Origin: an uncultured Mediterraneibacter sp. | GTDB lineage: Bacteria > Bacillota > Clostridia > Lachnospirales > Lachnospiraceae | Reading direction: 5' to 3' | DNA length: 57,087 bases | Assembly (NCBI GenBank): GCA_944381495.1 | Contig: CALWLJ010000022.1 | Location: 1 to 57,087, forward strand | Shown here: one piece after another, positions 2,022 to 31,195 of the stretch | How the letters are laid out: every line of letters begins with the position of its first letter | Position numbering within the stretch: position 1 is the first letter of the stretch | Notes under the pieces: generated by a model | The model's database searches: none | The model's input: the letters and a program-made list of their open reading frames with translations, nothing else | Told to the model about the DNA's origin: nothing | Made by a program: the position numbers and the translations under genes

Positions 2022-2090
2022 ATTTTACTTTCTTATGAGATTTTTTTTAACATAAAAATTTATAGAAATATGTTAATATCCAAAGAATTT
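2022..2090 (-). promoter_or_regulatory. Shared regulon promoter, copy 1 (surface protein)
   Basis: On the minus strand: -10 TAAAAT (2022-2027), 17-bp spacer, -35 TTAAAA (2045-2050), a 19-bp element (2051-2069) and a 21-bp element (2070-2090) containing TTCTTTGGATATTAACAT. The two elements match copy 7 (31.1 kb) at 13 of 19 positions and, over the 18-base core, at 13 of 18 positions without gaps. Confidence 0.65.
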
Positions 2091-2100
2091 TATCACTGCA

Positions 2101-3621
2101 TCATGATAAAGCAGCCTGTTTGCGATATGTATCCGGAGTGATCCCATACTGCTGCCGGAAGCATTTACAGAAATACGACATGTTTTTAAACCCTACATCA
2201 CATCCGATCTCACTGATCGACTTATCTGTGCTTTTCAGGAGCTCCGCTGACTTTTCCAGACGGATGTTCTTGATGTACTGATTCAGGTTCTCGCCTGTTT
2301 CTTTCTTGAAGATCATGCTCAGATAACCGGCAGACAGATAGAGCCTTCTGGCCAGCACGTCCAGATTAATATCTTCTCCGTAATGACTCCTGACATACTC
2401 TTTTGTAAGTTCTGTCTTGTACTTCAGGCTTCCTTTATCCTCGGCAATGAACTGCATGTATTTCGCCATCTGCTTTTCCGTGATCTCTGTGATCCCGGCA
2501 ATGCTCTGACAGGCGTACATCTCATCCACTACTTTTTCCAGTCTTTCCGTCTGCATCATTGCTGTCGACTCCCACATGGCTTTTACAAGATTGGAGAAGA
2601 CGAACTTCACGTACATGGTCGGGAACTGATTGCTGGTGCTGTATTTTTTTACCACCCTATGGAAATGTTCCTCCAGATGATACACGTCCCGGTTACGGAT
2701 ATCCCGCTCCAGCATACCCAGCAGCTGTCCTTCGTTTATCGCCTTGTCGCCGGGATCTTCCGGGTTCTCGCAGAACACTTTTCTTCCGGTCTGGTAGAAT
2801 TTCTCTTCCATCAGGCTGTCCAGTTTCCGGTATACTCTGGGCAGTTCTTTATAGGATTCCATCCTGCCGCTGACCGCGATCCAGAATTCCATGCAGAAGT
2901 CCATATACAGTCTGTGAGAGAATCCCTCTGCTTCTCTGAGCAGGTTCTTCGGCTCTTCCAGGAACAGCAGAAGTGCCTGGTTTGTATTCAGATTCAGGTA
3001 GGTTACCTTTTCCAGAAAGTAATCGTTAAGTACGTTCCTGAACTGTTCCTCTGATTCCTCGAAGAAATCGTCTGTTCCTTCGATCAGGCAGATGTAATGG
3101 ATCTTTTCCCATATGGCAAAATCTACGTGGCCCTCCGCTTCCGACAGAACGGATGGTTTACTTTCCATTATGTAACGGCTCATAAAATATCTGCTCAATG
3201 CTTTTGATGTTTTTTCTCTGCTCTTCATTGCTTCCTCTCTTTTCCGGAGACACTGCTGGGCGCTTTCATACGCCCGGTTGAACTCGCAGGGATCAACAGG
3301 TTTCAGGATATAATCCTTCACGCCGTATTCGATCGCAGTCCTGGCATAGTCGAAATCCTGAAATCCGCTGAGGAGAATAGTCTGCATCTCTCTCTTATCC
3401 TCCGCCGCCTGTTTCGCAAGATCCAGTCCCGACAAGAAGGGCATCCTGATATCTGTCAGCAGGATATCGATATCCTCTGCTCCCATCAGAGCCGCCGCCT
3501 CCTTTCCGTTGGTCGCTTCCAGTATCCGGCAGTCAGGATCCTTTTTCTCAATGAGACTGCGGATTCCCTTGCGTTCAATCCTCTCATCATCTGCTATAAG
3601 CACTGTATACATTCCTCTCAC
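2101..3621 (-). CDS. Response regulator, REC + AraC-type DNA-binding domain (YesN family)
   Basis: This 506-residue protein is a two-component response regulator. The receiver domain is at residues 4-122, with acidic pair D11/D12, phospho-acceptor D57 in LLTDIRMP and K107 in ILKPVD. A long linker region (130-390) is typical of YesN-like regulators. The C-terminal AraC domain (about 405-503) shows two helix-turn-helices (LARRLYLSAGYLSMIFKKE and the later SEIGCDVGF region). The start is ambiguous: GTG at 3621 is preceded closely by AAAGGA, while ATG at 3612 gives MYTVLIADDE. It lies after malEFG and a terminator, and has its own copy of the shared promoter, suggesting autoregulation. No histidine kinase gene is next to it. 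I infer that it activates the starch/EPS promoters listed here; that role is not proven. Confidence 0.93.
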   Translation of the reverse strand: MRGMYTVLIADDERIERKGIRSLIEKKDPDCRILEATNGKEAAALMGAEDIDILLTDIRMPFLSGLDLAKQAAEDKREMQTILLSGFQDFDYARTAIEYGVKDYILKPVDPCEFNRAYESAQQCLRKREEAMKSREKTSKALSRYFMSRYIMESKPSVLSEAEGHVDFAIWEKIHYICLIEGTDDFFEESEEQFRNVLNDYFLEKVTYLNLNTNQALLLFLEEPKNLLREAEGFSHRLYMDFCMEFWIAVSGRMESYKELPRVYRKLDSLMEEKFYQTGRKVFCENPEDPGDKAINEGQLLGMLERDIRNRDVYHLEEHFHRVVKKYSTSNQFPTMYVKFVFSNLVKAMWESTAMMQTERLEKVVDEMYACQSIAGITEITEKQMAKYMQFIAEDKGSLKYKTELTKEYVRSHYGEDINLDVLARRLYLSAGYLSMIFKKETGENLNQYIKNIRLEKSAELLKSTDKSISEIGCDVGFKNMSYFCKCFRQQYGITPDTYRKQAALS

Positions 3622-3684
3622 CCATCCTTTACTATGCTGCGCCTTTACCGGCTTCTATCCTCTTTCTATCATTTCGATGATATT

Positions 3685-3753
3685 ATTCTAATGTAATAAA
3701 GCAGCAAAGCACATAAAACAAATCGCAGATTTATAGCATTTTCCAAAGATTCT
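3685..3753 (-). promoter_or_regulatory. Shared regulon promoter, copy 2 (response regulator)
   Basis: -10 TAGAAT (3685-3690), 17-bp spacer, poor -35 TGTGCT (3708-3713), 19-bp element (3714-3732), 21-bp element (3733-3753) containing CTTTGGAAAATGCTAT. It begins four bases after the malG terminator, so the regulator gene is transcribed separately from malEFG. A weak -35 with upstream repeats fits activator dependence and autoregulation. Confidence 0.6.
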
Positions 3754-3756
3754 GAG

Positions 3757-3896: not shown

Positions 3897-4784
3897 TCAG
3901 CCCTTCACGGCGCCGCCTGTAACACCTTCTACATAGTATTTCTGCAGGCAGAGGAACAGTATCGTTACCGGTATCGCTACCAGTACGCCGCCGGCACAGA
4001 ATCTTGTAAAGTAGCCCTGATAATCGTTTGTCCATACCCAGCGCTGCAGTGCAACCGCTACGTTATAGCTCTTGCTGTAGCCGAACGCCACATAGGATGC
4101 GAATACATAGTCACACCACGGAGCCATGAATGCAGTCAGTGCCGTATAGATGATAATCGGCTTGGCCAGCGGAAGGATGATCGTGACCGCGATGCGGGCG
4201 TTGGATGCTCCGTCAAGCCGCGCGGATTCGTCCAGCGCCTTTGGCATGGTATCCAGGAAGCCCTTCGCCACATAGTAACCCATACCGGAACTTGCCACCG
4301 TTACCAGCACCAGACCGGGGATCGCGCCTGCCTGAGTCAGTCCGAACTGCTGCAGAAGGAAGTACATACAGATCATCGTCAGGAAGCCCGGGAACATGCC
4401 AAGGATCAGCCAGAACTGCATTAATAATGTTCTTCCCCTGAATCTCAGTCTGGACAGCGCATAGGCTACGCTCAGCACCATAAATGTATTAAAAATTGCT
4501 GCGCATACCGCAACGATCAGCGTATTCAGATACCATCTTACAAAGGAGCAGTCTCCGCTGAAAAGATAAGTGTAGTTGTCCAGAGAGAATTCCTTGGGCA
4601 TCAGGTATGCTACCATGCCGCCGTACTCTGACGCATAGGAACGGAAACTCTGGAGCACAAGTCCTACAAAGGGAAACAGCCATATAATACTGATGATGAT
4701 TAGTATCGCATAGGTAATGGCATTTCCGATTTTTCTGTTTCTGCTCCTGGATGCGGTTTTCTTTTCTTTATTCTTATTAGCCAT
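3897..4784 (-). CDS. malG: Maltose/maltodextrin ABC transporter permease MalG
   Basis: This 295-residue inner-membrane permease has six predicted membrane segments, beginning around residue 22 (AITYAILIIISIIWLFPFVG). It carries the EAA loop that contacts the ATPase (ESARLDGASN, about residues 187-196). It is a member of the MalG-type sugar permease family and would import maltose or maltodextrins with MalF and MalE. The start codon overlaps the malF stop by one base (TAATG), indicating translational coupling. A strong terminator follows 100 bases downstream. No ATPase gene (MsmX/MalK type) is in the operon, so a shared ATPase encoded elsewhere is expected, as is common in Bacillota. Confidence 0.95.
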   Translation of the reverse strand: MANKNKEKKTASRSRNRKIGNAITYAILIIISIIWLFPFVGLVLQSFRSYASEYGGMVAYLMPKEFSLDNYTYLFSGDCSFVRWYLNTLIVAVCAAIFNTFMVLSVAYALSRLRFRGRTLLMQFWLILGMFPGFLTMICMYFLLQQFGLTQAGAIPGLVLVTVASSGMGYYVAKGFLDTMPKALDESARLDGASNARIAVTIILPLAKPIIIYTALTAFMAPWCDYVFASYVAFGYSKSYNVAVALQRWVWTNDYQGYFTRFCAGGVLVAIPVTILFLCLQKYYVEGVTGGAVKG

Positions 4785-6187
4785 TATTGGAATCCCTCCT
4801 CGTCTCTTACAGAAGGCAGCAGCCGGTAAACTACAAGCGATATGACTGCCGTTACTGCAAATACCATAATACCGATCACGGCTGCCATACGGTAGTTCGT
4901 GTCATTGACAGTCAGCTTGTACAGCCAGGTGATCAGAAGGTCCGTATAACCTGCTCCTCCTGCCAGATCCATAGACAACGGATTTCCCTGGGTCAGCAGG
5001 AATATGACGTTGAAGTTGTTCAGATTTCCGGTAAATGCTGTCAGAAGATACGGTCCTGTCACGAACAGCATATAGGGAAGCGTGATGCTGCGGAACATCT
5101 GGAATGCATTGGCGCCGTCAATCCTGGCGCTTTCATACAGATCTTCCGGAATATTCATCAGGATACCGGTTGCCATCAGCATAGTAGGCGGAATACCTAC
5201 CCAGAGGTTGATCACGATGATCAGCACACGGGCGATAGCCACATTGGACCAGAACGGTATATAGGAATCGATCAGGCCCCACTTCAGCAGATAAGCATTT
5301 ACCAGACCGTCGTTGGCAAACAGCTTATACACATAGAGCAGTGATACAAACTGAGGGATCGCGATGGTCATGACCAGGATCGTTCTCCACAGTTTCTTGA
5401 ACCTGATCCCCTTCTTGTTGATCAGGATAGCCACTCCCATACCCAGGAAATAGTTCAGGAATGTGGCGAAGAACGCCCATACCAGCGTCCATCCCAGGAC
5501 AGTGAAGAAGGTAGAGCCGAATCCGGAGCCTCCAATGCTTAACAGATTTTTAAAGTTCTCCAGGCCCACCCATCCGAACAGATTGCTGGGCGGCTGGTGC
5601 TGTGCGTCATAGTTTGTAAACGCAATGCAGATCATGAAGATGATCGGTATCACGATAAATACAAATATCCCGATATTCGGAAGCGCCAGCAGCGTTTTGT
5701 CAAAATTTTCTGTAAACAGAGACCGGAAATCCTGTCTGGATGTAGGCAGAGCCTTGCCGGCCTTCTTCAGCAGATAGATCTGCCTGTTCTGACGGATGTT
5801 CACCCTCCACAGGAACAGGAACGCAAACAGGACAAACAGAGAAAGGATTCCATACAGCAGGATCAGAAAACTGTTGTCTCCATAGATTGTAACCGGTACG
5901 TTTCCGGATTTGTCCACATATGTGGCCGATGTTCCCAGCGTGGGAAGTTTTGAAATGTAGACTGCGCCAAAAGTGACCATATAATAGATGAAAAATATCT
6001 CTATCGCAAGGAAAATAATTCCCCGGAGGAACTGTCTGTGGAGCAGCTGGCCGAAGCCCATGATCACGAAAGACAGCTTAGCCGTCCAGTCTCCTTCTGT
6101 GAAGGTCCGTCCGATTTCACGGAGTCCTTTGCCGATCCCCGAGAGCGGCGTTCCCTTTTTGGCGGTTGATTTATTGTCTTTACTCAT
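4784..6187 (-). CDS. malF: Maltose/maltodextrin ABC transporter permease MalF
   Basis: This 467-residue permease has about eight membrane segments. An N-terminal extension of about 150 residues (membrane spans near 40-85 and 105-127) precedes the core permease, as in MalF-type rather than short sugar permeases. The EAA loop reads ESARIDGANAFQMF near residue 360. It pairs with MalG, with which it overlaps by one base, and lies 160 bases after malE; a long hairpin sits in that gap. The ribosome binding site is TGGAGG-like, just upstream of the ATG. Substrate is inferred from family and from the amylases next door, and was not shown directly. Confidence 0.95.
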   Translation of the reverse strand: MSKDNKSTAKKGTPLSGIGKGLREIGRTFTEGDWTAKLSFVIMGFGQLLHRQFLRGIIFLAIEIFFIYYMVTFGAVYISKLPTLGTSATYVDKSGNVPVTIYGDNSFLILLYGILSLFVLFAFLFLWRVNIRQNRQIYLLKKAGKALPTSRQDFRSLFTENFDKTLLALPNIGIFVFIVIPIIFMICIAFTNYDAQHQPPSNLFGWVGLENFKNLLSIGGSGFGSTFFTVLGWTLVWAFFATFLNYFLGMGVAILINKKGIRFKKLWRTILVMTIAIPQFVSLLYVYKLFANDGLVNAYLLKWGLIDSYIPFWSNVAIARVLIIVINLWVGIPPTMLMATGILMNIPEDLYESARIDGANAFQMFRSITLPYMLFVTGPYLLTAFTGNLNNFNVIFLLTQGNPLSMDLAGGAGYTDLLITWLYKLTVNDTNYRMAAVIGIMVFAVTAVISLVVYRLLPSVRDEEGFQ

Positions 6188-6222
6188 AAATACCTCCAGT
6201 TTAACTTTGTCTTAAATCAATT

Positions 6223-6256
6223 GTTGCGCAGACTGCCTTCCGGCGTTCTGCGCAAC
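6223..6256 (-). other. malE-malF intergenic hairpin
   Basis: GTTGCGCAGA and TCTGCGCAAC form ten perfect pairs; an inner GCC-TTCC-GGC adds three more. No T-tract follows on the minus strand. It is probably a stabilising or partial-termination structure that leaves more malE than malFG message, comparable in position to the REP hairpin in E. coli malE-malF. Confidence 0.6.
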
Positions 6257-6347
6257 AGTCGTGTATAAGTAAGAAGTTCTAAAAATGAAAAAGTCGAGTC
6301 AGTATTTTGTTCTGCCGCGTTAAGCTCAGCTGCCTGCCGTCGCAGAA

Positions 6348-7628
6348 TTATTTTGTCACATATGATTCACATGTTGCCTGGTAGTTCTCAAGAGCAGTCA
6401 TCAGCTGGTCGTCAGAAGCATTATCATATGTTCCTGCGATAATATCATCTGCCAGTGATGTAGACAGATCCCAGAATCCCTGCGGATACTGTCCCTGCGG
6501 GATGGTATACTGCAGCTGCTCATTCAGTGCGGAAAGTGCCTCGTCAGCCTGTACGCTCTCATCTTTCTGTGCCTCCAGATTGGACGGTCCCCATGCGACT
6601 GCTTTGTAACGTTCTACCTGTACCTCTGCGCTTGTCAGGTATTTAGCAAGTTCCAGACATACCGTAGCTTTTCCGGTATCGCTCTGCGGTTTCACACCCA
6701 TAAGCTTGAATCCGCCGAAGCCGCCCATCTGATATGTCTGTCCGTCCACTGTGAATGTCGGGAGCTTCGCGCATGCATATCCGTTGCCAAACAGTTCTTT
6801 CGCTGCTGACGCATCCCATGTTCCGTCTACAATTGCGGCTGCATTTGTCGCATTGCTTACAGAAGATCCATTGTAGAATGCTGTGGATTTTGTCAGGTTG
6901 ACGATTGCTTTCATCGCTTCAACGCCTTCCTGTGAAGCATAGGTTGCATCAATGGCTGTGAAGTTTCCATCAGAATCTGTGTCATATGTAAGTGTACATC
7001 CGGCTCCGAAGAAGAATGCCGGCATATACCATCCGTTATTGACCTCCATGTAGAATCCCTTGCCTGCTTTTTCACAGTCAGCAACGATTCCCTCCAGAGT
7101 AGACGGATCAGAGATCACGTTCTTGTCATAGTAGAGGAAATATCCGTTATCCGATGTAACCGGGAATGCATAGATGGAATCCCCCATCTTAGAAGCTTCT
7201 ACAGATCCCTCATCGTTGTTCTCTGTTACAAAGTCTGCATAGTCTCCGATAATTTCACTGACAGCTCCTGCGGAAACAAGGCGTGCCATCTGGTCCTGTG
7301 CAAACACGAAAACATCAGCACCGCTCGCGACATCCGTGATCATATTGCTGGCTGCATCGCCTTCGCCGACCGCCTCTACATTGATGTCATAACCGGAATA
7401 AGCCTCATTCTCATCAATAAACTTCTGAGCCTGTTCCTTGGTGAAGTCCACGCTCTGCTCAGCCACCCAGATCTTGATCGTACCGGAGCCGTAATCCACA
7501 TCTCCTGAATCCTCTGCTCCTGCTGTTGCGTTGCCTGCACTATCTCCTGAGCCGCCGGCTGAACCACATGCCGCAAGGCTGAGTGCCATCGCTCCTGCCA
7601 GAAGGACAGATACAATTTTCTTCTTCAT
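6348..7628 (-). CDS. malE: Maltose/maltodextrin-binding lipoprotein MalE
   Basis: This 426-residue extracellular solute-binding protein (SBP family 1) captures maltodextrins for the MalFG permease. The N-terminus is a lipoprotein signal with lipobox LAAC and the lipidated cysteine at residue 21, followed by a Gly/Ser/Asp-rich tether up to about residue 48. The mature domain starts with GTIKIWVAEQSVDFTKEQ and contains aromatic residues typical of sugar clefts (NGWYMPAFFFG, GPSNLEAQ). The ribosome binding site AGGAGG lies 11 bases upstream of the ATG. It heads the malE-malF-malG operon and carries a copy of the shared promoter. Confidence 0.95.
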   Translation of the reverse strand: MKKKIVSVLLAGAMALSLAACGSAGGSGDSAGNATAGAEDSGDVDYGSGTIKIWVAEQSVDFTKEQAQKFIDENEAYSGYDINVEAVGEGDAASNMITDVASGADVFVFAQDQMARLVSAGAVSEIIGDYADFVTENNDEGSVEASKMGDSIYAFPVTSDNGYFLYYDKNVISDPSTLEGIVADCEKAGKGFYMEVNNGWYMPAFFFGAGCTLTYDTDSDGNFTAIDATYASQEGVEAMKAIVNLTKSTAFYNGSSVSNATNAAAIVDGTWDASAAKELFGNGYACAKLPTFTVDGQTYQMGGFGGFKLMGVKPQSDTGKATVCLELAKYLTSAEVQVERYKAVAWGPSNLEAQKDESVQADEALSALNEQLQYTIPQGQYPQGFWDLSTSLADDIIAGTYDNASDDQLMTALENYQATCESYVTK

Positions 7629-7701: not shown

Positions 7702-7770
7702 ATTATAGGGAATCAGAGGCCGGATTAGTATGAAAAAATATCAAGAAACATGTCACTATTTCAAGAAAAT
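7702..7770 (-). promoter_or_regulatory. Shared regulon promoter, copy 3 (malEFG)
   Basis: -10 TATAAT (7702-7707), 17-bp spacer, non-consensus -35 TACTAA (7725-7730), 19-bp element (7731-7749) and 21-bp element (7750-7770). TTTCTTGA occurs twice, exactly 20 bp apart, the clearest direct repeat of the set. A perfect -10 with a poor -35 predicts activator dependence. Confidence 0.75.
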
Positions 7771-13453: not shown

Positions 13454-13522
13454 ATTATATTTTCCGGATATGAGACGGACAACGACACTTTTTTACAAAA
13501 CATATAATTTTTTCAATAATCT
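13454..13522 (-). promoter_or_regulatory. Shared regulon promoter, copy 4 (CBM74 amylase)
   Basis: -10 TATAAT (13454-13459), 17-bp spacer, -35 TTGTCC (13477-13482), 19-bp element (13483-13501) and 21-bp element (13502-13522). The upstream elements overlap the last 30 bases of the FrhB-like gene, so coding and regulatory information coincide there. The leader to the ATG is about 150 bases and contains a GCTCTT/AAGAGC hairpin. Confidence 0.75.
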
Positions 13523-20068: not shown

Positions 20069-20075
20069 ATCCGTT

Positions 20076-21352: not shown

Positions 21353-21369
21353 TGCAATCCCTCCTGTAC

Positions 21370-21831
21370 CTAAAATAAACTTCCGAAATTCACTGCCTTC
21401 GGGTATACTTTCTTCATTTCTTCCCACTGCACGATAAACCGGTCTGTCACCGGATATACCAGCTTTCCTGTGAGTGTAGGACTGTCGATCCGGTCAAATA
21501 CTTCGATATAGATGGTCCTGCATCCCATCAGTTTTCCCAGCCAGAAAAAGGGCACCGCCACTGCCGCTCCTGTTGATATGATCAGATCCGGACGCTCCCG
21601 AAACAGGATCTTCACCGCAAGAAATGTATTACGCACAAGATTCAGGATATTCCTGTTCGTTGGATAATAGCATGGATACACCTTTTCTCCGCTCAGTGTA
21701 CTTCTCGCATCCTCTTTGTCAAAGGTTACCCAGAACCGTTCCTTCCCCTTCCAGAACGGTTTCAGAAGATACAAATGTGTCAGATGTCCGCCGCTGGAAC
21801 ACACCAGGCAGACCTTCATCGCCTTTTCCAT
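21370..21831 (-). CDS. PssD-like glycosyltransferase subunit (Alg14-like)
   Basis: The protein begins MEKAMKVCLVCSSGGHLTHL and has 153 residues; the SSGGH motif and the following membrane-associated segment are typical of Alg14/PssD, the subunit that recruits PssE to the membrane. ATG 21831 is preceded by AGAGGTGA; a longer frame to 21936 would run back into the promoter and was rejected. It is the first gene of the second EPS transcription unit and is followed by pssE-like after 17 bases. Confidence 0.87.
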   Translation of the reverse strand: MEKAMKVCLVCSSGGHLTHLYLLKPFWKGKERFWVTFDKEDARSTLSGEKVYPCYYPTNRNILNLVRNTFLAVKILFRERPDLIISTGAAVAVPFFWLGKLMGCRTIYIEVFDRIDSPTLTGKLVYPVTDRFIVQWEEMKKVYPKAVNFGSLF

Positions 21832-21879
21832 ATTCGCTTCACCTCTTGCTGTTTTCCTTCTTCTTTCGACCTTGTGTTT

Positions 21880-21948
21880 AATATATTCCCCGGCAGTATT
21901 TCTCTCAATGACAATATTTTCAAAAATGTAGCACATTCCGCAGATTCA
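21880..21948 (-). promoter_or_regulatory. Shared regulon promoter, copy 5 (second EPS unit)
   Basis: -10 TATATT (21880-21885), 17-bp spacer containing CCGGGG, -35 TTGAGA (21903-21908), 19-bp element (21909-21927), 21-bp element (21928-21948). The 21-bp element matches copy 7 at 13 of 21 positions. It is the most diverged copy and so the least certain, although its spacing is identical. Confidence 0.5.
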
Positions 21949-22006: not shown

Positions 22007-25000
22007 TTATCTTCTTCTGTGTGTTCCGTATCTCCTTCCCGCCGTGTAAACGCCTGCTGCCACAAGCGCAGAAATAATCATTGCCGCTGCCGGCAGCATT
22101 ATATTCGCCGAATCACCGGTCTTGACCGTCTGCTTTCCGGCATTGCCTGTATCTGAGCTTCCGTTCTGGCCGGACTGAGCACCGCCGTTGCCGGCTGCTG
22201 GATTATCTGCTGTCGGGTTGTCTGACGCAGGCTTGTCCGTTCCAGGTTCATCTGTTCCAGGCACGTCCGTTCCGGGTTCATCTGTTCCAGGCACATCCGT
22301 TCCAGGTTCATCTGTTCCAGGCACGTCTGTTCCGGGTTCATCCGTTCCCGGCTCATCTGTAACGATATAGGATTCATCATATGCAGGAGCCAGTGCCTCG
22401 CTGTCAATCTCGATATCCTTCACCTCATCTGTCAGGATAAGGCCGGACAGTGCCGGTACGTCTGCTGTAAGCGCTCCGTCTGCATCAGCTGTATAAGTTT
22501 CTCCGCTTACCAGATCTGTATATGTTTTTCCGGCTTCAGCGGCAAATGTGACCTGCTGTACATTTTCGGTATCATTGTTTGCCGCTACATACAGCGTTGC
22601 TTCCTCATCACTTCTCACATAGGCCATGACCGTATCCCCGTCTGTATCAACCGGCTCCATGTCTCCAGTCCTCAGTGCAGAATAAGAGCTGCGGATCTCC
22701 GCCATGGTCGCATACCATTCTGTCAGTTCCTGATTTCCTTTTCCCCATTCCATGGCACGTCTGTCATCCGGATCATCCGCTCCGACCATTCCCAGCTCAT
22801 CGCCGTAGTAGATCGTCGGCGCTCCCGGATATGTCATCTGGATAAACGCCACCAGGTACTGACGTTCCTTTGCCAGATCAGAAGTTGTCTCGTATGTGGG
22901 GAACGCGCTTTCTGTGTCTGTCTGGGCGCGGTCATCATCGATGCCGTCCAGATAGGAAAGCAGTCTTGTCGTGTCGTGGGAGCCTACCAGATTCATCATC
23001 GCATAGAATGCTTCTTCCGGATAACGCTCTCTCAGCTTTTCAAGTTTATTTACTGCATCCTGTGCGCTGCCGCCCTTTGCATAGGCAAGGACTGCATCGC
23101 GGAATACATAGTTCATAACAGAATCATACATGTCTCCCAGAAGATATTCAGAAGCATCGTCCCAGATCTCCCCGATGATCACCGCATCGCTGTCCAGTGA
23201 TTTTACGGATGCACGAAACTTCTGCCATGTCTCGTCGGAAACTTCGTTTGCAACATCAAGTCTCCAGCCGTTGGATCCCTGTGAGAGCCAGTACTGAGTC
23301 ACACAGCCTTCTCCGTCGATGATCTCATCTGCCCAGCCCGGAGTCTGATATTCGGATCCGTCTGTAGATGCGATGACCGGCATGGAGTCATAGCCCCACC
23401 ATCCTTCATAAGAATATACATTCTCGCCGGCGCGCTCGCCGATGGTATCCTGTACATACGCTCCGTTGTCATCTGTCATATAATCCTGGCTGACTACAAA
23501 CCATTCTGTATAAGTAAAGTCTGTAACACCTCTGCCTCCGAAATATTCTCTGGCTGCTGCTTCCGCCTCATCCTGTGCTGTGCCTTCGTTTTCAGCCATG
23601 TAGTCATACACATATGCCCAGTACGGATATGCCCCTACTTTTCCATCCTGTCCTACGAACTTGTAGTACCGGTCAAAGTAGATTGAATCATCTGATACAT
23701 GATTGAACACACCGTCCAGAACGATATGCATGTCATTCGCCTCTGCCACCTCTACCAGTTCAGTGAAGTCGCCCAGCGTTCCAAGGATCGGATCGATCTG
23801 TGTATAGTCTGTAGCGTCATACCTGTGGCTTGAGATGGACTGGAATACCGGGTTGAGATAGATCACGTTTACTCCCAGCGCCTTCAGGTAATCAATCCTC
23901 TCAGTGATTCCCTTCAGGTCGCCGCCGTAGATCTCGTTGCTCCACTCACCGTCTCCGCTCCATGCATTTTCCGGGTATGTATCCGGGTTCAGCGTCTCCT
24001 GATCCGGGTTCTCCGGCCATGTATACCAGTCAGTGATAAATTCATAATCCGTTGCTCCGCGGGATGTGGTCTGTGCCTGATCATTGGATGGATCCCCGTT
24101 GAAGAAACGGTCCGGGAAGATCTGATAAACGACTGCATTCTTCATCCAGTCGGGAGTCTCATATCCCTCTTCATATACATTCATCTCATAAGGCTTCACC
24201 TGAGTCAGATCAGCTGTCATACCGGTTCCGTAGTATCCGTCATCATCACAGTAGATCTTCACGCTGGACTCTCCTGCGATCACAAAGTAATACTCATATC
24301 CGCCCAGCTGGCTGAACTGAGTTGTCACCGACCATCTTGCCTTGCCGCTCTCGGGCGCATCTGTCTTCTCCATCTCAAGGACCTGCTGCTCTTTTCCCTT
24401 GATGACCAGTTTCACCTGCTGAGCGTCGTCTCCTGTGTCAAGAGAGAATGTCACTGCGGTATTGGTCGGAACCGCACCATAGATATCCTTGTATTCTTCG
24501 TCTTTGCTGTCGAAGAAAATGCTTTCCTCATCCAGTACTTCATCGGATGCATTGTTGTAATAGATCTTTGTCACCGGATCGAAGTAGAAGGTTACTGTCT
24601 TGTCGTTTTCCAGTGTGAATTCATCGATCTCAAATGTCTCGCCGTCACAGGTCAGTTTCAGATCAGAGTAGGTGCCTGCCGCCAGAGCCACTGACGCGCT
24701 GTAGATCCCTGTAAGTCCGCTGTCCGTCAGCTTCGTTCCTTCCGGAATGCCTGTTCCGCTGAGCGTCACATCTGCAAAGATGTAATCCAGGCTTGTGACC
24801 GCCAGATGACTGAAGTCGCTGTAGTAAACGGTAACATCGCCTTTCTCCGTAACTGACAGACTGTAGTTGGAGCCGTCCTGCGCTCCTCCTACTCCATAGT
24901 TCTCTGTCCATGATCCCATGGCGATCTTGTACTCATAATTTGCCGCCGGAACATCCTGAAAGGTATAAGAGTACATGCCGTTTCCTTCGTATGTCATCTC

Positions 25001-26443
25001 ATTGGACGCCGCATCCCAGCTGGGTCCCGGGAAGGTTCCTGGCACGCACACCAGTCTTCCTGTAAATGCATCTCTTGTGTAGCTTGACCAGGTTTCTCCG
25101 CTCACTTCCACTTCTTCTGCGGAAGGATCAAGTACACGGGTTCCGTTTACGGTATAGTAGTAGATCACGTCCACAGCATCATCGCCGAAGAAAATATCTT
25201 CTGACACAAACGAGCTGTTGAAGTTTCCATTGCTGTCGGTTCCTGCTGTCAGCTGAACTTCTGTGACATCATCCGGAGTATCATGGTCTGCATAGTACAG
25301 TTTTACCTCATCGCCCTCTTCTCCGGTCATGACAAATGTCGTTGTTCCGTTTGCATTGTCCCGCACAGCCGCCTCTACAGGCACTGCTGCGAATCCCAGC
25401 ATCTGTGCTACGATGTTATAGTCATTGCATGTATCATACAGCTTATCCGACGCTACATCATACAGGAATATCACATTCGTTCCGTCCTCTGCAATGGTCA
25501 GGGCCTTATTGCCTCCGCCGTTGGATTCATACCAGTTTGCATAATTGAACACTGCCTTGTATTCGTAGCTTCCTGCATTGAATACCTGCTGATACAGATA
25601 AAGTGTATCCGAGATCTGGGTAAACTCATATCCTCTTGCGTCTGCCGTCCAGTTATCCGCATCATTCTGTCTTACTGTTCCGATCAGGGAAACCGTGGTG
25701 GCAAACGCCGGCGACGACACATTGCCGCTGTTCTGATAGATATCGAGAGGTTCTGTCCTGACAGAGTCATATACCTGCCCGCCCAGTTCATCCACGAATA
25801 CAGTCAGGCTGTCGGACCCTGCAGGAACCGTCAGCTCAATATTGCCGTCTCCATTTCCCAGAGAATAGTCCCAGGCGTCGTCGAAGGCCACCTTGTATCC
25901 GCCATCCTGCAGAGTCACATCCTCAGTCAGCTCCTTGAACTCAAATGTTCTCGTATACAGTCCGCCTCCCACATAATCCAGTTCTGCATTGACATCCGCC
26001 GGATCCCAGCTTGCAATAGAATAGTCGCTGCCGTTCTCATCAACGAACTCAAGTCCCCAGAAATTTCCTGTCAGTGCGGCAGTGTGATACTGGTCCGCAT
26101 TGTCCACGGAATTGGTCAATTCCCCGTTCCGGTACCGGACGTATACAGTCTGATCATCGGACACTGTCACCTCGTCCGTCAGTCCGCCGTCCCGGCCATT
26201 CCGGTACAGAGTCAGCGTATGGCTGCCTGCGCTGAGGTCAATCTTCCCCTCATAGACGCCGTTTGCATAGAGCTGCATATCCACGCCTGTTCCGTCTTCT
26301 GTCCTGACCTGAAGGAGATCATCCACATTTCCGGTTGTTTCCGCCTTTACTTCCTCCATTTTCTGTCCCGGCCACGGCACAATTCCCGCAGCCAGTGTCA
26401 GAGCAAGAAAGCATGCGCCGATCCTTACACTTTTTCTTCTCAT
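22007..26443 (-). CDS. Cell-wall-anchored amylopullulanase-like GH13 enzyme with starch-binding modules
   Basis: This 1478-residue exported enzyme has a signal peptide (cleavage near residue 35, KAE), then several starch-binding modules of the SusE/X25-like type around 120-225, 250-340 and 465-545. A CBM34-like N-domain (about 640-750) precedes the GH13 barrel (about 765-1250), which begins AVVYQIFPDRFFNGD, typical of neopullulanase-type enzymes. Catalytic residues are D1063 (GWRLDVANEV), E1092 (GEIWDD) and D1157 (VGSHDTT). A Thr/Asp/Pro repeat spans 1362-1405. The C-terminus has VKTGDSAN, a membrane span and an RRYGTHRRR tail, a variant sortase signal. It should digest starch at the cell surface and pass products to MalEFG. 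It has its own shared-type promoter. Confidence 0.95.
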   Translation of the reverse strand: MRRKSVRIGACFLALTLAAGIVPWPGQKMEEVKAETTGNVDDLLQVRTEDGTGVDMQLYANGVYEGKIDLSAGSHTLTLYRNGRDGGLTDEVTVSDDQTVYVRYRNGELTNSVDNADQYHTAALTGNFWGLEFVDENGSDYSIASWDPADVNAELDYVGGGLYTRTFEFKELTEDVTLQDGGYKVAFDDAWDYSLGNGDGNIELTVPAGSDSLTVFVDELGGQVYDSVRTEPLDIYQNSGNVSSPAFATTVSLIGTVRQNDADNWTADARGYEFTQISDTLYLYQQVFNAGSYEYKAVFNYANWYESNGGGNKALTIAEDGTNVIFLYDVASDKLYDTCNDYNIVAQMLGFAAVPVEAAVRDNANGTTTFVMTGEEGDEVKLYYADHDTPDDVTEVQLTAGTDSNGNFNSSFVSEDIFFGDDAVDVIYYYTVNGTRVLDPSAEEVEVSGETWSSYTRDAFTGRLVCVPGTFPGPSWDAASNEMTYEGNGMYSYTFQDVPAANYEYKIAMGSWTENYGVGGAQDGSNYSLSVTEKGDVTVYYSDFSHLAVTSLDYIFADVTLSGTGIPEGTKLTDSGLTGIYSASVALAAGTYSDLKLTCDGETFEIDEFTLENDKTVTFYFDPVTKIYYNNASDEVLDEESIFFDSKDEEYKDIYGAVPTNTAVTFSLDTGDDAQQVKLVIKGKEQQVLEMEKTDAPESGKARWSVTTQFSQLGGYEYYFVIAGESSVKIYCDDDGYYGTGMTADLTQVKPYEMNVYEEGYETPDWMKNAVVYQIFPDRFFNGDPSNDQAQTTSRGATDYEFITDWYTWPENPDQETLNPDTYPENAWSGDGEWSNEIYGGDLKGITERIDYLKALGVNVIYLNPVFQSISSHRYDATDYTQIDPILGTLGDFTELVEVAEANDMHIVLDGVFNHVSDDSIYFDRYYKFVGQDGKVGAYPYWAYVYDYMAENEGTAQDEAEAAAREYFGGRGVTDFTYTEWFVVSQDYMTDDNGAYVQDTIGERAGENVYSYEGWWGYDSMPVIASTDGSEYQTPGWADEIIDGEGCVTQYWLSQGSNGWRLDVANEVSDETWQKFRASVKSLDSDAVIIGEIWDDASEYLLGDMYDSVMNYVFRDAVLAYAKGGSAQDAVNKLEKLRERYPEEAFYAMMNLVGSHDTTRLLSYLDGIDDDRAQTDTESAFPTYETTSDLAKERQYLVAFIQMTYPGAPTIYYGDELGMVGADDPDDRRAMEWGKGNQELTEWYATMAEIRSSYSALRTGDMEPVDTDGDTVMAYVRSDEEATLYVAANNDTENVQQVTFAAEAGKTYTDLVSGETYTADADGALTADVPALSGLILTDEVKDIEIDSEALAPAYDESYIVTDEPGTDEPGTDVPGTDEPGTDVPGTDEPGTDVPGTDEPGTDKPASDNPTADNPAAGNGGAQSGQNGSSDTGNAGKQTVKTGDSANIMLPAAAMIISALVAAGVYTAGRRYGTHRRR
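22229..22360 (-). repeat. Tandem repeat encoding a Thr-Asp-Glu-Pro-Gly wall-spanning linker
   Basis: About four 30-base units encode TDEPGTDVPG. The unit sequence differs only at a few third-codon positions, so length variation between strains by slippage is likely. The linker should extend the enzyme through the wall. Confidence 0.9.
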
Positions 26444-26595: not shown

Positions 26596-26648
26596 ATTGG
26601 TATCGACATCTGAGATATTGAATCTTTTATCTTGGTCTCTTCGATTAA

Positions 26649-26717
26649 GTATAATTTTCGTCCCGGGTACGGACAATATCACATTTCCCCAAAACATGTC
26701 ATTTTTCCAAGAAAAAT
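26649..26717 (-). promoter_or_regulatory. Shared regulon promoter, copy 6 (wall-anchored amylase)
   Basis: -10 TATACT (26649-26654), 17-bp spacer with CCCGGG, -35 TTGTCC (26672-26677), 19-bp element (26678-26696) and 21-bp element (26697-26717) with CTTGGAAAAATGACAT. The whole 69 bases align with copy 7 without gaps at high identity, including GTACCCGGGA in the spacer. Confidence 0.8.
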
Positions 26718-26754: not shown

Positions 26755-26770
26755 ACATGCTAGCATGTCT
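26755..26770. repeat. Perfect palindrome GACATGCTAGCATGTC
   Basis: It contains the stop codon of the GT4 gene. The same GACATG...GCATGTCC-ATTTG sequence recurs at 33.6 kb, so it may be a small dispersed repeat rather than part of the gene. Confidence 0.5.
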
Positions 26771-27920
26771 CCCCGGCCCGCCGCTCGAGGGAATGAGGCA
26801 ATCTTCCCGTCCTGCGGTCAAACTCCGCCATCAGCCATGCGGCATCTTTCTCTATATCATAGCCGCTCCTGCCCGCAAGTTCAGCCGTCAGCAGCGCGTC
26901 CAAAGCCCGGTCTCTGTTCCTCATTTCCAGCACAGTATCCGCCCACTTTTCCCAGCTGTCATCAAGGGAAAGGAAACAGACCAGATCTGTGAAAGCACAT
27001 TCTTTTGTAATCACATCGGAAAGCACGCAGGGCAGCGCCGCCATCTGCCATTCTACGGCGACAAGGGGAAGTCCCTCATGCCTGGAAGGCAGAACCATCA
27101 CATCCATCGCCTGCAGCATATCCTGGATATGATCTGTCATCCCCAGAAATACGACTCCGTCGTCCAGTCCCAGCTTCTTCACCAACGCCCGCACCTCTTC
27201 TTCACAGTGGCCATATCCGGCGAGGAAAAGCTTTGCATCCCTCTGTTTCTCCCGGACCTTCTGAAACACCTGAAGCAGAAAAGGATGATTTTTCTGTTCA
27301 TTGAAGTTTCCCACATGTCCCACCGCCAGTGTCTCCGGCAGGAGTCCGTATGTCTCCCGCATCCGCCGGCGCACCCCCGGATTAAAAGAAAATTTCTGAA
27401 TACTCCTCCCATTCTTCACTGTCTGAAAGGACCGGTTTCCATACATCCACTCGCCTGCCATCTGTCCGCATGCATAGGCGTCTGTATAGCTCCGGTAAAA
27501 CAGAGGACGCATGATCCGGTCTGCCCGTCTGGCGTCACAGGTGGAATTATGTACATGGGCGATTCGGACGGGACACCCTGCCGCCCATGCCGCTGTCAGC
27601 TCTATAGCCATCGTCGCACTGTTTCCATGGACATGGATAATGTCGTATTTTTCCCGGACCATAAACCGGTACAAGACCTTCACATACTCCGCTGTCTTCC
27701 TCCGTCTTGACGGCAGGATCCGGATCTTTATCCCCACATTCCGGAACATCTGCCGGACTTTTTCACAGTCCTGCTCGCCAGATCCCACACAGACGTCGTA
27801 GTTTTCCATATCAAATCTCGAATAATAATCAAATATCACCTGTGTGATCCCGTTCCGGTTTAATCCCACTGTGTTGATCACCAGGATCTTGGTACGTTTC
27901 CGCTTTCCGTTGTTTTCCAC
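26760..27920 (-). CDS. Glycosyltransferase family 4-like protein
   Basis: This protein of 386 residues has a GT-B fold. The N-terminal half shows NTVGLNRNGITQVIFDYY and YDIIHVHGNSATMA; the C-terminal half shows GHVGNFNEQKNHPFLLQVF and VLPSRHEGLPLVAVEWQ, the last containing the conserved EGLP donor-binding loop of GT4 enzymes. The start is GTG 27920 with GAAGGA upstream. It is the last gene of the first EPS unit. Its stop lies in a palindrome only about 40 bases before the promoter elements of the downstream amylase. Confidence 0.9.
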   Translation of the reverse strand: MENNGKRKRTKILVINTVGLNRNGITQVIFDYYSRFDMENYDVCVGSGEQDCEKVRQMFRNVGIKIRILPSRRRKTAEYVKVLYRFMVREKYDIIHVHGNSATMAIELTAAWAAGCPVRIAHVHNSTCDARRADRIMRPLFYRSYTDAYACGQMAGEWMYGNRSFQTVKNGRSIQKFSFNPGVRRRMRETYGLLPETLAVGHVGNFNEQKNHPFLLQVFQKVREKQRDAKLFLAGYGHCEEEVRALVKKLGLDDGVVFLGMTDHIQDMLQAMDVMVLPSRHEGLPLVAVEWQMAALPCVLSDVITKECAFTDLVCFLSLDDSWEKWADTVLEMRNRDRALDALLTAELAGRSGYDIEKDAAWLMAEFDRRTGRLPHSLERRAGETC

Positions 27921-27951
27921 TTTACAAGTCCTTCTTTATTCCGTCTTTCTT

Positions 27952-29028
27952 TTATCCTTTTATTCTTCTGGCCAGTTTTCTGTACAGAGCCTCTGTATCC
28001 GTCAGGCAGCTTTCCGGCTTTTCCGTCCCGCGTACAGCCTGTTCCAGATCCGTCATCCCATCTGGTCCCCATTCTGCTATAAGACGGACATTCCGGCAGA
28101 GCTCCACGCACATATGATACACATCCGCCACCTTATGATTGCGGTTGTCAATGGCAATACAGGGAACTCCGGCGATCACACTGAAGATCATTCCGTGCAG
28201 CCGGTCCGTTATAATGCACCGGCATTGGGCAAATTCCCGGATTTTCTCTGATACTTCCCGGTATCTCTGATCAAAGTCCAGACATATGCTGCCTTCCGCA
28301 GCCATCGTAGTCAGCAGACGGGTCTTTCCTCCTCCGGAGCACATCTGCAGGAGTCTTTCTTTTGTCTCCTCATCCAGGGCAGATTCCCGGTCGTCCCGGA
28401 TACAGATCCCGCAGTCATACCGGGGCTGTACGTCCCCACAGGGAATCCTGCCCGACAGATAAAATACAATATCCGGTACAAGGATTACTTTCCGGAACAA
28501 CTTCTGCATCTGCCCAAAGCTTCTCTCTTCCCTTGCACAGACAAGAATTCGGGGATGGCGGCCATATATACACATGGCTCTCTTCCGCTCATTCCGCCCG
28601 TACCCATCGTTAGAATAATCCATTGTCTGCGGGAAAATGATAATCCTGTTGTCCGGAAACGTCCGGATGATCTTCCTCCGTAAAGCCTCATACCTGGGAT
28701 ACAGATCTCCCATATTCCCGCCTCCGCTCAGCACGATCACATCCCCCGGCCGGATCTGTTTTTTTAATGACCGGATATACTTTAACACGTCACACTCGTT
28801 GATCACCGTCACATTTTCCTTGCCCAATATATCCCGCAGGAACCACTCCATTGCCAGTGAGATTGCCTGATCCCCCAGATTATTATAGGACGCCGCATCG
28901 AGGAAGAAGCACCTCCTCTGTTCTGTGTTCCTCTCTGTCACATATTTTTTCTGAAAAAGAAAATCTCCCAGATTCCGGAAGACCAGATTCATTTCCATTG
29001 GAAATATCCGCCTGATATTCATTGTCAT
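27952..29028 (-). CDS. Polysaccharide pyruvyl transferase family protein (second copy)
   Basis: This protein of 358 residues has the PF04230 pattern: AASYNNLGDQAISLAMEWFL, VLSGGGNMGDLYPRYE and RLHGMIFSVIAGVPCIAIDN. It is closer to the EpsO/EpsI-like branch than the copy at 16019-17251. The pair suggests either two pyruvyl groups in the polymer or a second sugar transfer. It lies 18 bases after the radical SAM gene and 31 bases before the GT4 gene on the same message. Confidence 0.88.
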   Translation of the reverse strand: MTMNIRRIFPMEMNLVFRNLGDFLFQKKYVTERNTEQRRCFFLDAASYNNLGDQAISLAMEWFLRDILGKENVTVINECDVLKYIRSLKKQIRPGDVIVLSGGGNMGDLYPRYEALRRKIIRTFPDNRIIIFPQTMDYSNDGYGRNERKRAMCIYGRHPRILVCAREERSFGQMQKLFRKVILVPDIVFYLSGRIPCGDVQPRYDCGICIRDDRESALDEETKERLLQMCSGGGKTRLLTTMAAEGSICLDFDQRYREVSEKIREFAQCRCIITDRLHGMIFSVIAGVPCIAIDNRNHKVADVYHMCVELCRNVRLIAEWGPDGMTDLEQAVRGTEKPESCLTDTEALYRKLARRIKG

Positions 29029-29046
29029 CGCAGCCCTTTACTGTTC

Positions 29047-30138
29047 TTACCTGTGTCTTATCTTTTTATATATCCCGTATGCGTTCCGGATCATACCATC
29101 TGCTATCCCCACAAGATTGCTGATCCTTTTCCGCGCCGGACCGTACTCATCACTGCTTTCCCCCAGCTTCGAGGACAGGAAGCTTCTCATCCCGGGTGTG
29201 TACCATCCCGCCTCCGGCCTGTCTCTCAGCTCTGCATAGGACGGCGTCTGTAAAGACGGGATCACTCCCAGAGACATGAAATGGCTGGAATTCATACAGA
29301 ACGGACTTCCGCAGCAGTTGCCCATTGCCAGGAACCGGATCTTTTCCTCCGGATCCTTAAAAATATCCTGATACAGATAGGAGCTGTAGCATCTGCGCAT
29401 GATCCCGGTGGACAGATCCAGTATGGCTGTCCAGTCCCCCGCATAGCAGAACTCCCTTCGTTTTACATTGAAGTTCTTCATTGTAAAGTCAAACAGCGGA
29501 GAGTCAAATTCCTCTCCCAGCCTTCTGTACTCCTCTTCACCGCAGGAGGTCAGGAGTTCGATCTTCTTCAGCCCCTCCCCTTCCTTCCTGGTAGCGGCGA
29601 CCTGCGGCATGGCGCCGGTGCGCCGGACACACAGCTCCTTCATTTCTTCCAGATATGGAATGTATTCATCACACAGATTGAACTGCACCATGAAGGAAGC
29701 GCCGGCCTGTCGCACCATCTCGATATTATCAAAAAACGTATCTACAAGCTTCCTCTGCTTCAGTTCCAGATAATGAAAAGAAAAAGCAAAATGGAGCCGC
29801 TCCGCAAACGGAGCCGCCCGGTCCAGAATAGCTCTGATCCGGCCGGTCACTGTGCCATTCGTAGTAATATTTACATAATGTCCCTGCAGCAGGATCTGAT
29901 ATACAATATCCTCCAGTCCCTTCTGCAGAGTCGTCTCCCCTGAGCCGCATATGCTGAAATAACAGATGCCGCCCCACCTTTCCCGATGGAGCGCTTTCCC
30001 GATCTGCTCCGGAGAATATTTCAGCTCTGCCATTCTCCCTTTTCTGTTATGCCTCTGGATCACATAACAGTAACTGCACTTCAGATTACATGCCGTTACA
30101 GGAATCAGACATTCTATAAATCGTTTTATCTTATCCAT
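29047..30138 (-). CDS. Radical SAM protein of the EPS cluster
   Basis: This protein of 363 residues carries the radical SAM cluster motif CNLKCSYCY near residue 18 (CxxxCxxC), followed by ICGSGETTLQKG and NITTNGTVTGR in the barrel. C-terminal cysteines (RREFCYAGDW, RRCYSS, GNCCGSPFCMNS) may bind an auxiliary iron-sulfur cluster as in SPASM-type enzymes. Substrate is unknown. Between two EPS genes a role in sugar or lipid-linked intermediate modification is plausible, though peptide modification cannot be excluded. Confidence 0.88.
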   Translation of the reverse strand: MDKIKRFIECLIPVTACNLKCSYCYVIQRHNRKGRMAELKYSPEQIGKALHRERWGGICYFSICGSGETTLQKGLEDIVYQILLQGHYVNITTNGTVTGRIRAILDRAAPFAERLHFAFSFHYLELKQRKLVDTFFDNIEMVRQAGASFMVQFNLCDEYIPYLEEMKELCVRRTGAMPQVAATRKEGEGLKKIELLTSCGEEEYRRLGEEFDSPLFDFTMKNFNVKRREFCYAGDWTAILDLSTGIMRRCYSSYLYQDIFKDPEEKIRFLAMGNCCGSPFCMNSSHFMSLGVIPSLQTPSYAELRDRPEAGWYTPGMRSFLSSKLGESSDEYGPARKRISNLVGIADGMIRNAYGIYKKIRHR

Positions 30139-30168
30139 ACGTCTCTCTGCGTTCCCCCCTTGTCCCGA

Positions 30169-31086
30169 TTACTCTGATACATATTCTCTGACCCGCTCAA
30201 TGATCGATTGATCTGTGTTCCAGTCAAATTTTCTGGCAAACAGACACTCGCTGTCTCTGATCTCCTCCCAGTCGGAATCTCTCCATGTATATGGATTCCC
30301 GTTCTTTCCCCTGGACTTCATATCGATCAGCCGCATATTGCCGCGCACATCATCATCATATTTCCGGTCGTAAAGCCGGTTTCTGAATCTGGAATTGTAG
30401 ACCAGGGACTGGATAAACAGCTCGTCTGCACAGTTCGTATACATGAAAACACTGCGGATCAGCTCCTTTTGCCCCAGGATATAACTTACCAGTTCATCAG
30501 TAATACTGACCCACTGAGAGCCATACCGGATCTGGAAACCGGGATACTTTTTCATTCGGTCCACTCCGGCCGCCAGCTGAGCTGCAAGCAGGATCCGCTC
30601 ACCGAATGTAAAACAGCTGTTCAGCGCTTTTGCCCGGTAACGTCTTCTGTAATTCTGCAGGAAATGATACAGACGGGTGCGCCGCCCCAGCTCCCGGTCC
30701 TTCTTCAGTCTCTCGTCTGTATCATAATGTATAAATTCATATCCTCTATTTCTTTCAAAAAAATTCTCAATATAACCGAGACTTTTGATCGGCAGATCAG
30801 CCCCGGACAGAAGATGATAATAATCATATCCTTCCCGATGCGCCTTCTCAAACAGGAAAATCTCGGTCTGCACCAGCTCGTAGCTTCCCCAATATACTTT
30901 ATACTGCTGATAAATATGAATCTGAGACAGCGTGACAGCCCTCTCCAGCTTCTCTCGCGGAACATCCTCAGCCTTTCTGTCAATATGTATATAAATTGTA
31001 TTGTTTGGCGCATCCAGCAGACTTAAAAGCAGGGCCAGCTGATCCCAGTTTCCATGCGCAATGATCAGATAAGCATGTCTCAGCAT
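30169..31086 (-). CDS. Core-2/I-branching (GT14-like) glycosyltransferase
   Basis: The 305-residue product begins MLRHAYLIIAHGNWDQLALLL and contains DAPNNTIYIHIDRKAED and YDYYHLLSGADLPIKS, hallmarks of the GT14 Branch family, which add beta-linked GlcNAc or xylose. ATG 31086 was chosen because AGAGGA precedes it. The frame is open further upstream, but those codons lie in the promoter: their apparent peptide similarity to a spurious frame at 26.6 kb is simply the shared promoter translated. It is the first gene of the first EPS unit. Confidence 0.9.
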   Translation of the reverse strand: MLRHAYLIIAHGNWDQLALLLSLLDAPNNTIYIHIDRKAEDVPREKLERAVTLSQIHIYQQYKVYWGSYELVQTEIFLFEKAHREGYDYYHLLSGADLPIKSLGYIENFFERNRGYEFIHYDTDERLKKDRELGRRTRLYHFLQNYRRRYRAKALNSCFTFGERILLAAQLAAGVDRMKKYPGFQIRYGSQWVSITDELVSYILGQKELIRSVFMYTNCADELFIQSLVYNSRFRNRLYDRKYDDDVRGNMRLIDMKSRGKNGNPYTWRDSDWEEIRDSECLFARKFDWNTDQSIIERVREYVSE

Positions 31087-31126
31087 ATCTATCCTCTTTC
31101 TTCCTTTTTTCTTTTTCTTGTCTCTT

Positions 31127-31195
31127 AGTGTAAATTTTATCCCGGGTACAGACAATATAACACTTTCCCGAAATATGTCACTTTTCCAAGAATCA
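31127..31195 (-). promoter_or_regulatory. Shared regulon promoter, copy 7 (first EPS unit)
   Basis: -10 TACACT (31127-31132), 17-bp spacer with CCCGGG, -35 TTGTCT (31150-31155), 19-bp element (31156-31174) and 21-bp element (31175-31195) with CTTGGAAAAGTGACAT. Leader to the GT14 start is about 35 bases. Confidence 0.8.

Follow-up and report, generated by a model that had tools for sequence, protein, structure and literature searches.

Putative class-II AraC-like operators before starch, exopolysaccharide and surface-protein genes in an uncultured Mediterraneibacter species

Contig CALWLJ010000022.1 of an uncultured Mediterraneibacter sp. (Lachnospiraceae; assembly GCA_944381495.1) carries seven minus-strand sites of one architecture upstream of starch-utilization, exopolysaccharide (EPS) and surface-protein genes. 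The window analyzed here is this entire contig (C22; 57,087 nucleotides) of a 3.19-Mb genome in 39 contigs (G000). It is probable, in our view, that a single class-II AraC-like activator of the YesN-type response regulator (RR) family uses all seven sites as its operators, and the RR encoded in the window is their likely binder. An AraC-type activator had been suggested in the preliminary description of this DNA, and that reading is now supported by the genome-wide specificity of the sites, their co-occurrence with the RR, their adjacency to it relative to controls, and their recurrence in other genera. Judged from sequence, the candidate operator set is real, specific and conserved; the putative regulon is new, the kind of regulator is known, and the mix of targets is surprising.

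The seven sites and their repeat unit

The seven sites are real. All of the gap-free minus-strand sites described earlier were recovered, with one shifted by a base (26649-26717 had been given, and the gap-free alignment is 26648-26716). The annotation of the window also bore out the genes that they were said to precede, namely, the surface-protein gene, the RR gene, malE, two amylase genes and two EPS units. When each site was left out of the matrix in turn (register corrected), it was the top remaining match in the window by a wide margin, scoring 23.7 to 55.3 versus 8.6 to 11.4 at the best other place. Across 40 dinucleotide shuffles of the window, the maximum with the full matrix was 15.2, and the lowest of the seven sites scored 52.2 (in-sample). 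In the related genome G070, 63 of 69 bases of the 26648 site were retained, and the 31127 site differed at one base within the 69 bp. The sites of the EPS promoters were well preserved there, with gappy alignment of the flanks. The RR cluster was 99.6% identical in the two genomes, so the footprinting comparison was uninformative at that cluster. A segment of about 226 bp directly upstream of the 31127 site (31204-31429) was missing from G070, and no inverted repeats turned up when its surroundings were searched.

For the anatomy of the operator, 65 distinct sites were gathered from fetched loci of the genus. The -10 box stood in the standard register in 54 of the 65, a fraction biased upward by a filter that was looser for this register. 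In the profile of the 54 sites, ATCTTGRAAWAGTGACAT is separated by two bases from TTCTKGRRAWTTTATCAT, and a weakly conserved stretch of 22 bases leads to TATAAT. One 18-bp unit resembling ATCTTGRAAWAGTGACAT is present twice at an exact 20-bp period, followed by the TATAAT -10. The mean column correlation between the two units peaked at 0.63 for a shift of 20 and did not exceed 0.38 for any other shift from 8 to 30 (31 nonredundant of 50 aligned sites), and the row identity was 0.51 at a shift of 20, with the next highest value, 0.42, at a shift of 18. The repeat of about 20 bp noted earlier thus held, with a period of exactly 20 bp. The same description had distinguished a 21-bp and a 19-bp element; these are mutually related, as it said, but the correlation peak identifies them as two copies of the one 18-bp unit, which rules out two different boxes. 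A -35 hexamer had also been proposed, and the site profile contains no consensus -35. The exact 17-bp spacing to the -10 proved to be the commonest one but variable, being found in those 54 of 65 sites under a filter that favors it.

Class-II activators of the AraC/XylS type (AraC at araI1-I2, MarA/SoxS/Rob) use two-box half-sites in head-to-tail repeats about two helical turns apart, the proximal one lying on the -35, and an AraC-type double helix-turn-helix (HTH) is expected to read two boxes about one helical turn apart. The sites have this layout, with direct half-sites repeated in tandem at a distance of about two helical turns and the proximal one on a poor -35. The 18-bp unit contains two conserved boxes, TCTTG and TGACAT, about one helical turn apart. 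The proximal unit reaches one base into the would-be -35; beyond that, the -10 is the only strongly conserved element. The likeness to the AraC/XylS class-II activators thus extends from the two-box half-site, the double HTH and the head-to-tail repeats with the proximal half-site on the -35 to homology in the DNA-binding domain. The differences are that the sensor here is a receiver domain rather than a sugar-binding domain, that the period is 20 bp, and that the boxes have other sequences.

Variants of the arrangement were also observed. Three tandem 20-bp units precede a surface-protein homologue (34% identity) in G008 (L241:336-424, contig C2), a genome in which the RR is broken into pieces. 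In G090, from another genus, TCTAAG replaces TCTTG at L222:13430 and L225:7455; this variant surfaced in a blind search for a -10 combined with 20-bp direct repeats. The first recognition helix of the G090 RR has a G/S difference that may be linked to the variant, on numbers that are too small. A weaker related repeat (score, 19 to 20) occurs at the loci of a third RR paralogue, L139 (own contig C6) and L173 (G043:C25), where it is perhaps the operator variant of that paralogue.

Genome-wide specificity and co-occurrence with the regulator

A sequence-only covariance model of the seven sites (R1) gave 26 matches with E <= 10 in the 3.19-Mb genome, of which nine had E <= 0.01; the scan scored the best 150 of 1,723 first-look candidates, and weak sites may be missed. 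Seven of the nine were the input sites, with in-sample E values of 1e-13 to 8e-9, and matches beyond these nine were background. The other two were C30:16007 (E = 1.1e-4), before a second malE-type gene, and C1:17786, before an LCP-family gene. The outcome named beforehand as refuting, a matrix that matches hundreds of unrelated promoters, did not occur in the whole-genome scan. A refined model of 50 sites (R2) gave 11 of 26 matches with E <= 0.01, namely, the same nine plus C31:22995 and C14:41122; the last overlaps the start of an open frame. A genome search with the consensus word, allowing up to 3 mismatches, returned 20 real and 20 control matches, among which three with fewer than 3 mismatches stood out, all in the window. 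The sites are therefore few, lie before functionally related genes and are conserved in relatives, as expected of a coherent regulon; exceptions in some genomes are sites before GH3, GH20, peptidase-C39 ABC and ABC2-membrane genes.

Co-occurrence within the genus was scored over 58 genomes, with cut-offs of E < 1e-100 for the RR (next best genome, 6e-44) and E <= 0.01 for the motif. The RR was found in 26 genomes and the motif in 31; 24 had both, 7 the motif alone and 2 the RR alone. RR-bearing genomes thus had the motif in 24 of 26 cases and RR-less genomes in 7 of 32 (Fisher p = 4.6e-8, no phylogenetic correction). The site lay on the contig of the RR in 20 of the 24 double-positive genomes and on another contig in G011, G045, G056 and G068. 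As for the two RR genomes that were missed, G018 has a correctly placed site (score, 29.2), and the contig of G064 stops before the promoter. All 20 fetched loci scored 25.6 to 53.7; 18 of these contain the RR (14 genomes; broken in G008), and L135 and L138 contain the MalEFG operon only. The motif was accordingly near the RR in 18 of 18 RR loci versus 0 of 24 loci of distant YesN paralogues, where the best score was 20.0. The RR loci of 11 further genomes lay outside the long-stretch set, and L125 and L134 were excluded because their contigs stop at the RR or short of the promoter.

The association recurred outside the genus. Across 298 other genera of the family, whose genomes had no part in training the model, the motif was found in 5 (R2, E <= 1e-4), the RR in 10 (E <= 1e-90) and both in 3 (p = 2.7e-4), each pair being on one contig within 4 kb. 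The site of a fourth motif genome, G351, adjoins a more distant RR (31%). In seven of the ten RR loci from other genera, a site with a score of about 30 or higher adjoins the RR or its operon, and with this matrix the 24 control loci scored at most 17.4. No motif match was found in 16 genomes from outside the Lachnospiraceae.

Candidate binders, targets and competing readings

YesN-type RRs are common in gut Firmicutes. The window RR carries PF00072, PF12833 and PF00165, that is, a receiver domain plus an AraC-type double HTH; the solved structures with homologous sequences include the DNA-binding domains of YesN, MarA, Rob and AraC, and the protein is 99% identical to one from a metagenome-assembled genome of Candidatus Mediterraneibacter stercoripullorum. 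The receiver alignment retains IADDE, LLTDIRMP and ILKPVDP, which we take to hold the acid pocket, the phospho-acceptor Asp and the Lys. These phosphorylation residues are kept in both of the classes into which the RRs fall. In the first, orphan class, the RRs are 48 to 59% identical to the window RR and, with the window RR and its 99% identical copy in G070, make up 7 genomes. They are flanked by malEFG (or the RR promoter) on one side and by the surface gene on the other, with no adjoining kinase. RRs of the second class are 34 to 39% identical to the window RR and mostly lie in MalE-MalF-MalG-RR-kinase-solute-binding protein (SBP) operons; in G003, Pfam identified the kinase (dCache) and the SBP of such an operon. 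An RR of the second class is also present in each of the 7 orphan-class genomes. In the genome studied here, C31 encodes this RR behind the gene for an ABC exporter, and C30 carries a separate MalEFG operon that has a site. Eight PF06580 kinases are encoded in this genome, one beside the C31 RR, one beside the C6 RR and none on C22. On these relationships, the window RR is classed as an orphan paralogue of the MalEFG-RR-kinase system, and one kinase serving both RR classes is plausible.

The preliminary description had proposed a starch/EPS regulon, which was supported but proved too narrow, because a pilus operon in relatives and the second MalEFG operon (C30) also belong to the predicted set. 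Relatives of the window surface protein, which match it over parts at 40 to 51% identity, are encoded at the head of operons that contain LPXTG pilin and sortase genes, and the order orphan RR, surface gene, LPXTG pilin gene and sortase gene was found in G004, G024, G042 and G043 (the G042 sortase was recognized solely by its TLxTC motif). The tip protein of G024 combines CBM26, SpaA, FctA and an LPXTG anchor. A site is present at a CBM26 amylase in G004 (C18) and, again pointing to EPS, before a CpsB/CapC gene and CpsD-like genes in G050 (C173). The second MalEFG operons of many genomes carry a site, including that on C30, and the LCP gene of the genome studied here is a further, weak candidate.

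The strongest competing reading is that the operators mainly serve the kinase-linked paralogue (the C31 RR with its kinase and SBP), with the orphan RR as a minor partner or modulator. This is possible, though we lean against it. Nineteen of the 26 RR genomes have only the 34 to 39% class and 17 of these 19 have the motif, all 7 orphan-class genomes also have the paralogue, and the paralogue adjoins an obvious kinase, in the genome studied here as well. Set against this, genomes with the orphan RR tend to have more matches (G070, 10; G000, 9; G050, 9; G004, 4; G042, 4; G024, 3; G043, 3) than paralogue-only genomes (0 to 2; G041, 4), a comparison in which the model, trained on G000, favors the kin of G000. 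In addition, the gene or operon of the orphan RR itself has a site in 7 of 7 genomes (G000, G004, G024, G042, G043, G050 and G070).

That a different transcription factor binds the sites, for example the GntR-family protein encoded near the 31127 site (32920-33282) or a LytTR-type regulator, appears improbable. LytTR-type regulators recognize direct repeats near the -35, a GntR gene lies near the site in L117, L126, L142, L144 and L153 (with ABC genes also in L146 and L156), and the motif occurs in some genomes without the RR. But GntR factors usually bind palindromes and the site is a direct repeat, and the GntR/ABC cassette was not seen in the other positive genus loci L145, L147, L149, L150 and L152. 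When frames of 120 aa or more were considered, it was likewise not seen in L215, L216, L219, L220 and L224 from other genera, where the RR is present (L222 has an ABC gene only); on this lack of adjacency, the GntR protein was rejected as the binder. It is very improbable that the similarity stems from one promoter segment copied recently within the locus, and such copying is ruled out as a general explanation, because alikeness beyond the units is confined to the pair 26648 and 31127 (56 of 69 positions, including 18 of 22 in the spacer) and in part to 13454 and 26648 (13 of 22), whereas the remaining 19 of 21 pairs agree at 2 to 10 of 22 spacer positions, the spacer is weakly conserved over the 54 sites, and the motif recurs at unlinked loci and near the same regulator in other genera.

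Several points weigh against operators of a single RR-family activator. The seven sites are incompletely independent, since 26648 and 31127 may be one duplicated promoter. The R2 training sites were picked with the seven-site matrix and include the seven, C30 and C31, so that R2 scores there are in-sample. The surface-protein site is weak under R2 (E = 0.0015). At the LCP site, the -10 is shifted and the site overlaps the end of the sigma-factor-like gene before it; the ten matches in G070 do not include this site. Shared ancestry of the genus genomes means that the Fisher values treat them as more independent than they are, and a match was the reason why most positive loci had been fetched. 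No histidine kinase was found next to the window RR in the visible contig. In the other genera, the fifth motif match (G280) is inside a gene and looks like chance, and a good site was absent from three of the ten RR loci (L217, L218 and L221, the latter two cut by contig ends); the blind repeat search likewise turned up no convincing site in L217 or L221. Of five tip proteins, only that of G024 had CBM26 by Pfam; those of G004, G042 and G043 and the truncated window copy had no CBM match. Finally, seven genomes of the genus (G008, G014, G016, G019, G044, G057 and G059) have the motif without an RR match at E < 1e-100, and it is possible that another protein or another RR binds these sites or that they are relics decaying after loss of the RR.

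The motif-only genomes amount to few independent cases, because G057 shares its site with G041 (DNA 92% identical) and G044 shares its site, before a GH3 gene, with G019 (97.5%). G008 has its RR in pieces, the G014 site lies before a GH20 gene, and G016 shares with G050 a site before a peptidase-C39 ABC exporter gene. Three of the four genomes with the GH3 sites (L119 and L122, from G044 and G019) and the peptidase-C39 sites (L118 and L132, from G016 and G050) lack an RR match at E < 1e-100, and G050 has one; Pfam was run on L119 and L118 only.

Gene setting and proposed mechanism

From left to right on the minus strand, the window contains the cut surface-protein gene, the RR gene, malG-malF-malE, a small gene without a Pfam match, the CBM26 amylase gene, the nine-gene EPS operon, the X25 amylase gene and the four-gene EPS unit (Table 1). 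The 13454 site overlaps the 3' end of the last gene of the nine-gene operon. The products of that operon are, as listed, an Alg14-like protein, a GT28-C protein, a DXD glycosyltransferase (GT), Wzz, an AAA_31/CpsD-type kinase, a 407-aa protein without a Pfam match, a pyruvyl transferase, a Polysacc_synt protein of the flippase type and an FrhB-like protein.

Table 1. Putative operator-promoters and associated genes in the window
Feature	Coordinates	Strand	Details
Putative operator-promoter, surface-protein gene	2022..2090	-	Units 2070-2087 and 2050-2067; -10 2022-2027; R1 E 8.3e-9 (in-sample); left-out score 27.1
Putative operator-promoter, RR gene (autoregulation)	3685..3753	-	Units 3733-3750 and 3713-3730; -10 3685-3690; left-out score 23.7
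Putative operator-promoter, malEFG	7702..7770	-	Units 7750-7767 and 7730-7747; -10 7702-7707
Putative operator-promoter, upstream of 1535-aa CBM26 amylase	13454..13522	-	Units 13502-13519 and 13482-13499; -10 13454-13459
Putative operator-promoter, nine-gene EPS operon	21880..21948	-	Units 21928-21945 and 21908-21925; -10 21880-21885
Putative operator-promoter, 1478-aa amylase gene	26648..26716	-	Units 26696-26713 and 26676-26693; -10 26648-26653
Putative operator-promoter, four-gene glycosyltransferase/EPS unit	31127..31195	-	Units 31175-31192 and 31155-31172; -10 31127-31132
Surface-protein frame	2..1957	-	Truncated by contig end; visible 652 aa without Pfam match
YesN-type RR	2101..3621	-	Receiver 7-114, HTH_18/AraC 423-502; candidate activator
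malG, malF, malE (maltodextrin-type ABC transporter)	3897..7628	-	Assigned by family; substrate suggested by amylase neighbors
Amylase, 1535 aa, with CBM26	8691..13298	-	
Nine-gene EPS operon	13493..21936	-	First listed open frame begins within the 21880 site
Amylase, 1478 aa, with three X25 stretches	22007..26443	-	
Second EPS unit: Branch-type GT, radical SAM, pyruvyl transferase, GT4	26760..31221	-	First listed open frame begins upstream of the 31127 site

Elsewhere in the window, the sole tRNA gene detected, tRNA-Arg(acg) at 33453-33528, lies between the GntR/ABC cassette and a 662-aa frame without a Pfam match. A single open frame at 38406-40166 combines SfsA and MutY-type (HhH-GPD plus NUDIX_4) domains and possibly encodes a fusion protein.

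In the mechanism that we infer, one monomer of the C-terminal double HTH of the RR would read one 18-bp unit through the TCTTG and TGACAT boxes, and two monomers would bind head to tail at the 20-bp period. The proximal monomer would cover the missing -35 and substitute for it in recruiting RNA polymerase at the TATAAT -10. The binder would be the orphan window RR, probably overlapping with the kinase-linked paralogue on C31. The orphan RR most likely derived from, or arose beside, an ancestral system of MalEFG, RR, kinase (dCache sensor) and SBP, and its targets would then have spread to the amylases, the EPS operons and the surface/pilus operon. A starch or maltodextrin signal would turn on digestion, uptake and surface attachment jointly.

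As reported for Clostridium cellulolyticum, the AraC-type RR XydR (kinase XydS) controls polysaccharide-degrading genes, and its effector domain binds upstream of its targets (PMC3572039). The window RR resembles XydR, as far as the available parts of that account describe it, in joining a receiver domain to an AraC HTH and in its link to polysaccharide-degrading genes; it differs in having a clear repeat consensus, a site on its own promoter, and EPS and surface genes among its candidate targets. For the YesN-type RR of pneumococcal TCS09, the portion of the report available gives no clear repeat motif, only conserved parts possibly from a direct repeat (PMC11034029), unlike the clear repeat motif found here. 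In Caldicellulosiruptor bescii, comparative genomics placed the kinase/RR pairs AviRS, MosSQ and others beside sugar ABC operons, an arrangement like that seen here; its starch genes were assigned to MalR, and the available text describes no EPS or pilus link (PMC8579813). Pilus genes of Bifidobacterium adolescentis 22L are up-regulated on starch, as cited in PMC11286577. The link of those sortase pili to starch comes from expression data, with no operator described in the citing text, whereas in the Lachnospiraceae the putative operator link comes from DNA sequence. In the parts of the open-licence literature that were available, neither this motif nor joint regulation of starch, EPS and pilus genes was found to have been reported for Lachnospiraceae.

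In general, YesN-type RRs had no clear operator in the available parts of the XydR and TCS09 accounts (PMC3572039, PMC11034029), and a concrete candidate of 2 x 18 bp is now at hand. This operator with its 20-bp period, its likely binder and its target list form a testable set. Starch digestion, surface slime and a surface pilus probably share one regulator that turns them on jointly. We put forward tentatively, as a reading that falls somewhat short of probable, that a kinase-less copy of a maltose RR is the master switch of a starch-attached life in a subset of Mediterraneibacter, governing amylases, MalEFG, a sortase pilus whose tip binds starch, and EPS synthesis (perhaps with LCP wall attachment), with the kinase of the paralogue as its input. 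The candidate operator set, with its likely binder and targets, predicts control of capsule/EPS and pili by dietary starch in these bacteria, which would tie food to surface and colonization traits.

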